DNA of 58,910 nucleotides from Comamonadaceae bacterium (GTDB lineage: Bacteria > Pseudomonadota > Gammaproteobacteria > Burkholderiales > Burkholderiaceae_C), in NCBI GenBank assembly GCA_030528485.1, contig JAUMYU010000006.1:1-58910 (forward strand), read 5' to 3'. The translations under genes were made by a program, and so were the position numbers. Below, piece by piece: positions 8,665 through 45,523 of the stretch. The notes below the pieces were generated by a model. It did no database searches. It had not been told where the DNA came from and saw only the letters and a program-made list of their open reading frames with translations. How positions within the stretch are numbered: position 1 is the first letter of the stretch; every line of letters begins with the position of its first letter.

Positions 8665-8751
8665 GCCCAGGTGGCGGAATTGGTAGACGCACTAGCTTCA
8701 GGTGCTAGCGGGGGCAACTCCGTGGAGGTTCGAGTCCTCTCCTGGGCACCA
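8665..8751 (+). tRNA. tRNA-Leu (anticodon CAG)
   Basis: An 87-nt class II tRNA with an encoded CCA end. The acceptor stem is GCCCAGG with CCTGGGC. The D-arm contains TGGTAGACGC. The anticodon stem CTAGC/GCTAG encloses the loop TTCAGGT, giving CAG. There is a long variable arm and the T-loop GTTCGAGTC. It lies between divergent rnr and pilR. Confidence 0.97.
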
Positions 8752-44445: not shown

Positions 44446-44675
44446 CTACTACGACTGCTAAACAATTGAATAAAAAGAATAGAGTCGTAGTAGTAGAGCT
44501 GCCATCTTTTTGTGGATAACTTGATTTTTACTGAAATTTCAATCACTTAAGCCCAAAAAAAGTCTGTGCAAGAGTCGGCTTCAGCACTGGCGCGAAATGG
44601 GGATAAGTTTGACGAGGGGCTGAAACAGACGTTTTGACCCTGGGTTTTCCACAGAAAAAGCAGCGTTTATCCACA
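44446..44675. other. Putative replication-origin module A (oriC-like)
   Basis: Elements in order: inverted repeat CTACTACGACT/AGTCGTAGTAG (44446-44456 and 44483-44493) around an AT-rich loop with TTGAATAAAAAGAATA (44466-44481); DnaA-trio-like TAGTAGTAG (44488-44496); a 14-nt spacer; perfect DnaA box TGTGGATAA (44511-44519); one-mismatch boxes at 44598-44606 (TGGGGATAA) and 44645-44653 (TTTTCCACA); and perfect box TTATCCACA (44667-44675). Trio, spacer and box are ordered as in the known basal origin unwinding system. Module B repeats this layout. Confidence 0.75.
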
Positions 44676-44750
44676 ATTTGCCTTTTGTTTTGCAAACCTG
44701 TTGTTTTTTTGCGGCCCTGGTTGTGCGCAGAGACAAACAGGCACGCCCCA

Positions 44751-45233
44751 ATGCCATCGAACATGAACCAAGTCCAGTGCTACAGCTATTTCAGCATCGC
44801 CTCGCAAACCCAAACGATTCGCACTGGCGAGGGCCGGCTGTCTCACGTCGCTGTTGAAAACGGAAATTTCGATCCGGCGGTCATTACTGCTTTACTGGGC
44901 CTCCATCCTCACCGTGCGTGGCAGCAAGGGGATAGAAATGCGTTCAACAAGCCCTATGGCTTTTCCTGTTGGAGCGACTGCATGCAAAAAAAGCCTGTTT
45001 TTGATGCAGGTCGGCAATGCCAACGCATTGCCTTGCAACTGCACGACAAAATTCCTGTGCTGAATGCGTTGCGACAGCAATATGCCGTGCAGTTTTGGAT
45101 CAATGTCGTGCCTACCTTGCACCCTGAAGAAAGCACGCCAGCACTTTCTTTGGGCCATGAAGTCATTGCGTTCTGCTATCTGACGGGTACGCAAATCGAT
45201 GTTGATATGTACGTTTCTGAAGCAACGACCTAA
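44751..45233 (+). CDS. DUF4279-like protein of unknown function between the two origin-like modules
   Basis: The 160-residue product resembles the DUF4279 family, whose function is unknown. It has FDPAVITALLGLHPHRAWQQGD (the pattern of a first half with a G-D after the helix, shown by LGLHPHRAWQQGD), a central SCWSDCMQKK, QLHDKIPVLNALRQQYAVQFWI, and the C-terminal signature CYLTGTQIDVDMYVSE. ATG 44751 (or 44763) is preferred. The frame runs up to a TTG at 44634, but that stretch overlaps DnaA boxes and does not look protein-like. No strong ribosome-binding site is visible. It is sandwiched between two DnaA-box clusters. Confidence 0.65.
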   Translation: MPSNMNQVQCYSYFSIASQTQTIRTGEGRLSHVAVENGNFDPAVITALLGLHPHRAWQQGDRNAFNKPYGFSCWSDCMQKKPVFDAGRQCQRIALQLHDKIPVLNALRQQYAVQFWINVVPTLHPEESTPALSLGHEVIAFCYLTGTQIDVDMYVSEATT

Positions 45234-45297
45234 TTGGTCTTAGCGGGACAGCTTGTTTGTCAAAGCTGGCGAAATTTTTGTCCCCCTGTTGGGCTCA

Positions 45298-45523
45298 CTA
45301 TCACTACCAAACTTTTGAATAAAAAAATATTAGTGGTAGTAGTAAGTCGTCGCTTGCTCTGTGGATAACTTTTTTTCTTCAGTAATTTCAAGGTCTTGCA
45401 GCGAAAAAAGCCTGTGCGCTAAACGCCGTGAGCGATGGGGGCCAATGGGGACAAATGGCGCTGAACTGGCTTGCCGGGCGATTGGTCGGATTCCATCCAC
45501 GCCACACGCAAGGTTTATCCACA
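45298..45523. other. Putative replication-origin module B (oriC-like)
   Basis: It repeats module A 848-849 bp downstream: imperfect inverted repeat (CACTACCA with TGGTAGTAG), TTGAATAAAAAAATAT (45315-45330), trio run TAGTAGTAA (45337-45345), a 14-nt spacer, perfect DnaA box TGTGGATAA (45360-45368), weak boxes at 45446-45454 (7/9) and 45493-45501, and perfect box TTATCCACA (45515-45523). Spacings of 86/47/22 compare with 87/47/22 in module A. Outside these elements the two modules have diverged widely. Confidence 0.72.

Follow-up and report, generated by a model that had tools for sequence, protein, structure and literature searches.

A probable chromosomal origin composed of two complete tandem oriC-like units in a Comamonadaceae bacterium

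Two modules that each resemble a replication origin lie near one another in a stretch of Comamonadaceae DNA, which raises the question of whether they represent one origin divided into two parts, two complete origins, or a working origin accompanied by a copy with some other role. The window (the whole stretch of DNA that was analysed, 58,910 nucleotides) is an entire contig of a 2.36-Mb, 132-contig assembly that is 80.5% complete. Direct reading reveals that the two modules are parallel, with R1-like DnaA boxes located 849 bp apart in the same orientation. The upstream neighbours are mnmA, a trpG-type gene, and aroQ, and a pyrroline-2-carboxylate reductase gene lies downstream on the opposite strand. 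A search of the window against Rfam at gathering scores yielded nothing beyond one tRNA; this tRNA-Leu (cag), at 8665-8751, is the sole RNA gene found there. We conclude that the locus is probably the chromosomal oriC of an Allofranklinella/Lampropedia-like Comamonadaceae bacterium, formed by two complete tandem units with the same orientation, and the best reading of the sequence comparisons is that both units are kept by selection.

Module A (44446..44675, plus strand) carries an AT-rich tract, TTGAATAAAAA (44466..44476, plus strand), as its putative unwinding element, and a run of DnaA-trios, TAGTAGTAG (44488..44496, plus strand), which was also recovered by a box/trio scan. After a spacer of exactly 14 nt comes the R1-like DnaA box, TGTGGATAA (44511..44519, minus strand). 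Beyond this box are an IHF-consensus-like site, TTTCAATCACTTA (44537..44549, plus strand), that agrees at eight of nine specified bases, and an R5M-like half box, TGTG (44565..44573, minus strand), placed by module alignment 54 nt past the start of the R1-like box. Two weaker DnaA boxes with one mismatch each, TGGGGATAA (44598..44606, minus strand) and TTTTCCACA (44645..44653, plus strand), precede the R4-like box, TTATCCACA (44667..44675, plus strand).

Module B (45295..45523, plus strand) repeats this layout with the same AT-rich tract (45315..45325, plus strand), the trio run TAGTAGTAA (45337..45345, plus strand; sequence and scan again), the same 14-nt spacer, and the same R1-like box (45360..45368, minus strand). 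An IHF-consensus-like site, TTTCAAGGTCTTG (45386..45398, plus strand), again matches at eight of nine specified bases, and an R5M-like TGTG half box (45413..45421, minus strand) is placed by the module alignment. These are followed by a weak box, TGGGGACAA (45446..45454, minus strand), a doubtful box, CCATCCACG (45493..45501, plus strand), and the R4-like box (45515..45523, plus strand). In both modules the IHF-like site lies at +26 from the start of the R1-like box and ahead of the half box, and the convergent R4-like box closes the far end at +156 in A and +155 in B.

The first-pass annotation had reported these elements in the same order in both modules, with box-to-box steps of 87/47/22 in A and 86/47/22 in B, and direct reading bears this out. 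Its description of the inner boxes as weaker DnaA boxes holds for A, with one mismatch in each; however, those of B carry two and three mismatches, and because the third box is so poor, its matching spacing alone deserves little weight. That annotation had also named equal box density in random intergenic DNA as an outcome that would speak against an origin. The richest 250 bp of the window contains four boxes with at most one mismatch, compared to one in each of 20 first-order Markov simulations. Likewise, a box with at most one mismatch preceded 8-21 nt upstream by at least eight of the nine letters of TAGTAGTAG occurs at two places in the window, which are the two modules, and in 0 of 20 mononucleotide shuffles. 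A model termed R1, built from 47 aligned modules that include both window modules, matches A at 44463-44613 (E 1.2e-21) and B at 45313-45461 (E 6.6e-22) when searched against the window's own genome, where no third module is found at E ≤ 0.01.

The trios of each module agree with the sequence definition of a basal unwinding system (BUS), which in the accessible text of PMC8287927 consists of at least three trios (3′-NAN-5′) within 16 bp of a DnaA box; three are present within this distance in both A and B. As in the Bacillus subtilis BUS, the trios adjoin a DnaA box and an AT-rich stretch. The window differs in holding two whole units and in its 14-nt spacer, compared to a peak of about 10-13 for B. 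subtilis-type BUS in that text. Separately, a perfect 11-bp inverted repeat (CTACTACGACT at 44446-44456 and AGTCGTAGTAG at 44483-44493) flanks the AT tract of module A and puts trio-like triplets on the opposite strand as well. By eye, less perfect copies of this repeat can be made out elsewhere among the modules of the window's genus, and none was seen in the other genera looked at.

Is each module a whole origin or half of one? Beyond the trios and box, the 47-module alignment retains a CA..TT core at +29 to +37 (the C is invariant and the other positions are conserved at 90% or more), TGTG at +54 (90% or more), and, near +88, a box resembling GGGGAYAA. The CA..TT core agrees with the IHF consensus WATCAANNNNTTR in the accessible part of PMC10380432. 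IHF-like sites that agree at eight or more of nine bases occur in 41 of 69 modules, whereas 200 rounds of shuffling gave 2.0 on average and 6 at most. In 58 of the 69, the offset that fits best is 26 or 27. This count and the module tree discussed below omit L085, L086, L089, L090, L093, and L094, which come from other taxa, and L017.

Model R1 also finds the Escherichia coli oriC (NC_000913.3:3925744-3925975) with 18.2 bits and an E value of 1.8e-6 in 1.8 kb, a match that spans only model positions 44-124 of 167. Within it, the R1 box, IHF site, and R5M of E. coli fall in register with the model without gaps, such that E. coli R1 shares a model position with the R1-like box of module A, and CTGTGAAT of E. 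coli matches the position of its half box. The E. coli origin has, like the modules, an unwinding element, R1, an R5M-like box, and an R4-like box. Its IHF site lies about 27 nt after R1, compared to 26 nt in the modules, whereas the distance from R1 to R4 is 180 bp, compared to 155-156 bp. Moreover, E. coli has one such unit and the window two, and the window has a regular TAG-trio run with its 14-nt spacer. The IHF-like, R5M-like, and R4-like sites, together with this match, make each module look like an entire E. coli-type oriC and not half of one. The first-pass annotation had proposed a duplicated or bipartite origin, a suggestion that gains support from the GC skew described below and from sister species that keep two modules; of its two terms, “duplicated” suits the locus better, as both copies have the look of a full oriC.

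The cumulative GC skew of the window drops until about 44-45 kb, apart from an interruption at 14-18 kb, and climbs thereafter, and its minimum at 45,000 (500-bp steps) is between the modules. Among ten wide skew profiles, the minimum falls at or between the modules (within 3 kb) in five, namely the window, G004, G013, G019, and G027. For example, the minimum of the 880-1,040 kb profile of G004 is at 972,000, beside a module at 971,560. In G012, G016, G024, G029, and G042, the minimum is elsewhere or unclear and not at the modules, as in G012, where it is at 3,308,000 compared to modules at 3,267-3,272 kb and dnaA at 3,325 kb. Local skew was computed for 19 loci of 10-19.9 kb, 15 of which have a module away from the edge. 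Skew to the right of the modules exceeds that to the left in all 15 (trivially in G025, and with a right part of only 1.3 kb in G027). The local minimum is within 1.5 kb of the modules or between them in 7 of the 15, within 3 kb in 10, and farther away in five (G004, G025, G042, G064, and G083). Four loci with a module near the edge were set aside; G002, G071, and G072 also rise, and G001 shows the opposite.

The minima that fall away from modules in relatives would be expected if the locus were not an origin at all, but a DnaA-regulated intergenic region. Given the full oriC anatomy and the E. coli match, the skew switch in the window, G004, G013, G019, and G027, and the presence of a module in 288 of 300 family genomes, we find this reading scarcely credible. 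If the locus is an origin with two units, the DNA between them might also be informative. Skew between the units is intermediate between that of the arms in three wide-spaced pairs (arm/inter-unit/arm values of -0.029/0.000/+0.035 in G013, -0.064/-0.020/+0.047 in G019, and -0.049/-0.034/+0.028 in G027), and this pattern is absent in G012 and G029, two of the five such pairs. Among closer pairs, it is seen over short spans in G006, G009, G016, G031, and G069, and not in G002. Intermediate skew fits forks entering from either side, but windows of such size vary as widely, and therefore it is no more than a hint that both units fire.

The statement of the first-pass annotation that the origin is not adjacent to dnaA agrees with the assembly, in which dnaA lies on another contig (C67, 11 kb) that has one DnaA box with at most one mismatch and no module. 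A profile search with the 47-module alignment covered 20 genomes, and in 19 of them it revealed no module closer than 1.5 kb to dnaA; the exception, G026, has a weak match (35.9 bits) within this distance. In G004, which belongs to the window's genus, dnaA is at 340 kb of its contig and the module is at the distant position given above. In G137, G093, G102, and G109, matches that lie 1.3-1.7 kb into contig 1 could be dnaA-adjacent origins. The module profile may help to locate oriC in this family, where those 19 of 20 genomes have none beside dnaA.

At E ≤ 0.01, model R1 matches 111 of 149 relatives. At E ≤ 1e-6, the 288 matching family genomes comprise 102 with two or more copies, some of them far apart or on separate contigs, and 186 with one, leaving 12 of the 300 with none; these genome searches use stricter filters, and weak copies may be missed. 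The 300 genomes were drawn at 95% completeness or more, with the window's own genome included though less complete, and the set may draw the family wider than the closely matching named records, which are Comamonadaceae. An exact-pattern census (24 of 120 and 40 of 399 genomes) was discarded in favour of the model as too strict, given variants such as TGTGGACAA. Because 186 of 300 family genomes show one module and 12 none, the module pair is not required in the family. Two modules 427-440 bp apart are present in Simplicispira metamorpha, Acidovorax sp. CCYZU-2555, an Acidovorax MAG (L098), C. kerstersii, C. avium, Comamonas sp. NoAH, and a Comamonas MAG (L099), and Diaphorobacter caeni has one full module within its 8 kb. 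Within the window's genus, G003, G005, and G007 have a single module at the threshold used.

Where the modules of a pair could be compared, they nearly always face the same way. The pair census covers 58 family genomes with both positions listed, without G085 (99 kb apart on one contig, both plus strand) and the non-family pairs G042, G457, G098, G455, and G459. Neighbouring modules are parallel in 26 of 26 genomes within 1.3 kb and 53 of 56 within 15 kb; the exceptions within that distance are G077, G004, and G298, and another is G365, whose modules are 20.5 kb apart. A binomial p of 4e-13 for this parallelism is too strong because the genomes are related. One possibility is that the kept orientation reflects a single obligate bipartite origin, wherein both modules are needed and are joined by DnaA looping across the gene between them. 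Precedent exists in B. subtilis and Helicobacter pylori, whose bipartite oriC has two DnaA-box clusters around one gene, as described in the accessible text of PMC8235120. In those precedents, as far as that text describes them, the unwinding element is in one cluster only and the intervening gene is dnaA, whereas the window has an AT tract and trios in both modules, a DUF4279 gene between them, and dnaA elsewhere. Moreover, module spacing in pairs varies from 274 bp to more than 10 kb, and a strict partnership leaves the many one-module relatives unexplained. Thus, we consider obligate bipartite function quite unlikely, and continue to favour two complete units.

The gene between the modules is probably incidental and not part of the origin device, because the units of several genera are about 430 bp apart and L. 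aestuarii has a different-looking ORF between its modules. The DUF4279 gene (44763..45233, plus strand) encodes 156 amino acids from an in-frame ATG chosen by eye, and PF14106 matches a longer ORF, 44634-45233, with an E value of 1.3e-14. In A. schreckenbergeri (G009, NZ_RDQM01000012.1), the same 1.1-kb region is found with 94% identity over 1,089 bp, and a DUF4279 gene likewise lies between the modules. In G005, a stretch 79% identical to this gene is on a different contig from the module, and L. aestuarii (G006) has in that place an ORF of 249 amino acids, which by eye looks like a flavin reductase. The idea of an origin tied to the DUF4279 gene was rejected on the basis of these two genomes.

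In a tree of 69 modules, window A groups with A. schreckenbergeri A (support 100/100) and window B with its B (98/80). Comamonas first copies form one group (100/99) and second copies another, apart from it (100/93), with the second copy of G274 adjoining the latter (100/97). Resolution is poor at the deep forks, and second copies of G012, G176, and G398 share one supported group (96/87) with a first copy, that of G281. By this tree, first and second copies are separate lineages in several genera. The two copies of G042 group together (100/100), which suggests a separate duplication or conversion there.

The first-pass annotation had further proposed that the functional elements are conserved while the rest drifts, and sister species agree, in that module elements hardly change and flanks drift. 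Across seven species pairs, the IHF core, R5M, and R4 together show a change at 1 of 119 sites for first copies and at 3 of 119 for second copies, compared to 317 of 959 and 297 of 959 (about 32%) at other sites past the box in the same units. These three elements were not used to select modules, and their positions come from the best match in one species of each pair. Trio-plus-box substitutions (4 of 180 and 3 of 180) were left out of account, since the modules had been picked by means of those elements. The second, weaker box was counted apart, with changes at 10 of 63 positions in first copies and 4 of 63 in second copies. In 9 of 10 pairs, conservation is lower in the space between modules than within them (gaps counted as differences; three pairs are within Comamonas), and the exception is the window versus A. 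schreckenbergeri, where this space is mostly the DUF4279 gene.

These data bear on two further explanations. The single-module relatives in the window's genus would be understandable if the pair were a duplication relic in which one copy has no present role, but this is made very improbable by the separation of first and second copies into supported lineages in several genera and by the few changes at IHF, R5M, and R4 in both. Alternatively, one module might be the working origin and the other a regulatory DnaA site of the datA or DARS type, derived from an origin copy and used for titration. datA likewise has an IHF site and DnaA boxes, according to the accessible part of PMC10380432, and boxes are altered in some modules: both perfect ones have changed in module A of A. 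schreckenbergeri (TTTGGATAA and TTATTCACA; L070 10963), whose B is intact, and variant boxes occur in some second copies (TGTTGATAA in L107 and L108, TGTTAATAA in L099). However, constraint at IHF, R5M, and R4 is equal in first and second copies, and second copies keep the trios, AT tract, and spacer that titration would not need, although the point about trios is partly circular because trios were used in module selection and in the model. We therefore regard a regulatory role for one module as somewhat unlikely. Module A may be weakening in A. schreckenbergeri, perhaps at the onset of losing one unit.

By analogy with E. coli, B. subtilis, and H. pylori, as described in the accessible parts of PMC8287927, PMC8235120, and PMC10380432, each of the two units might operate as follows. 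DnaA would bind the R1-like box, and a bend would be introduced by IHF at its own site at +26. An array of DnaA assembled across the R5M-like and weaker boxes could then reach the TAG trios and melt the AT tract, and the R4-like end would complete a loading platform for two helicases. Either unit would be able to start replication, and both presumably fire. With units less than 1 kb apart, the first to fire would copy the other within about a second. The pair would then act as one locus with two chances, perhaps giving a more reliable or better tuned single start.

The same arrangement might extend beyond this genome. We tentatively suggest, as a proposal that could well prove wrong, that many Comamonadaceae run their chromosome from two complete, independently competent tandem oriC units, both of which are used, that the copies are distinct lineages probably predating some genus splits, and that the family does not, as a rule, hold to a strict single origin. 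Pairs of apparently complete origins facing the same way, as many related bacteria carry, touch on the principle that a bacterial chromosome has a single origin. A few putative double origins are listed in PMC4403523, and these are far apart or have a duplicated dnaA. For example, Ralstonia pickettii 12D resembles the window in having two predicted oriC regions on one chromosome in DoriC, but these are 291 kb apart, at dnaA and hemE, and such cases are reported for very few genomes (PMC4403523), whereas the window has near-adjacent copies of one module that recur across the family. A literature search, with DoriC and most subscription journals outside its scope, found no description of tandem complete origins in Comamonadaceae. 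What looks new here is the likeness of each module to a whole E. coli-type oriC and the paired copies across the family. About a third of the sampled family genomes have two or more full units and offer natural tests of initiation timing, synchrony, and helicase loading.

Several related arrangements were also observed. Three modules in a row, all parallel, are present in G012, G013, G176, and G457, the last from another family. Parallel pairs or triples outside the family are found in G042, G457, and G098; in G042, from another family of the order, two similar parallel units lie 391 bp apart (C1:5138107-5138613). Modules were matched in a Thiotrichaceae MAG (L090 670-825, 88 bits) and a Cocleimonas MAG (L094 4396-4489, 51 bits), and given these matches in gammaproteobacteria-labelled sequences, the unit with its trios may predate the family. 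In L110 (G206), the trio run beside the origin box is expanded into a long TAG repeat.
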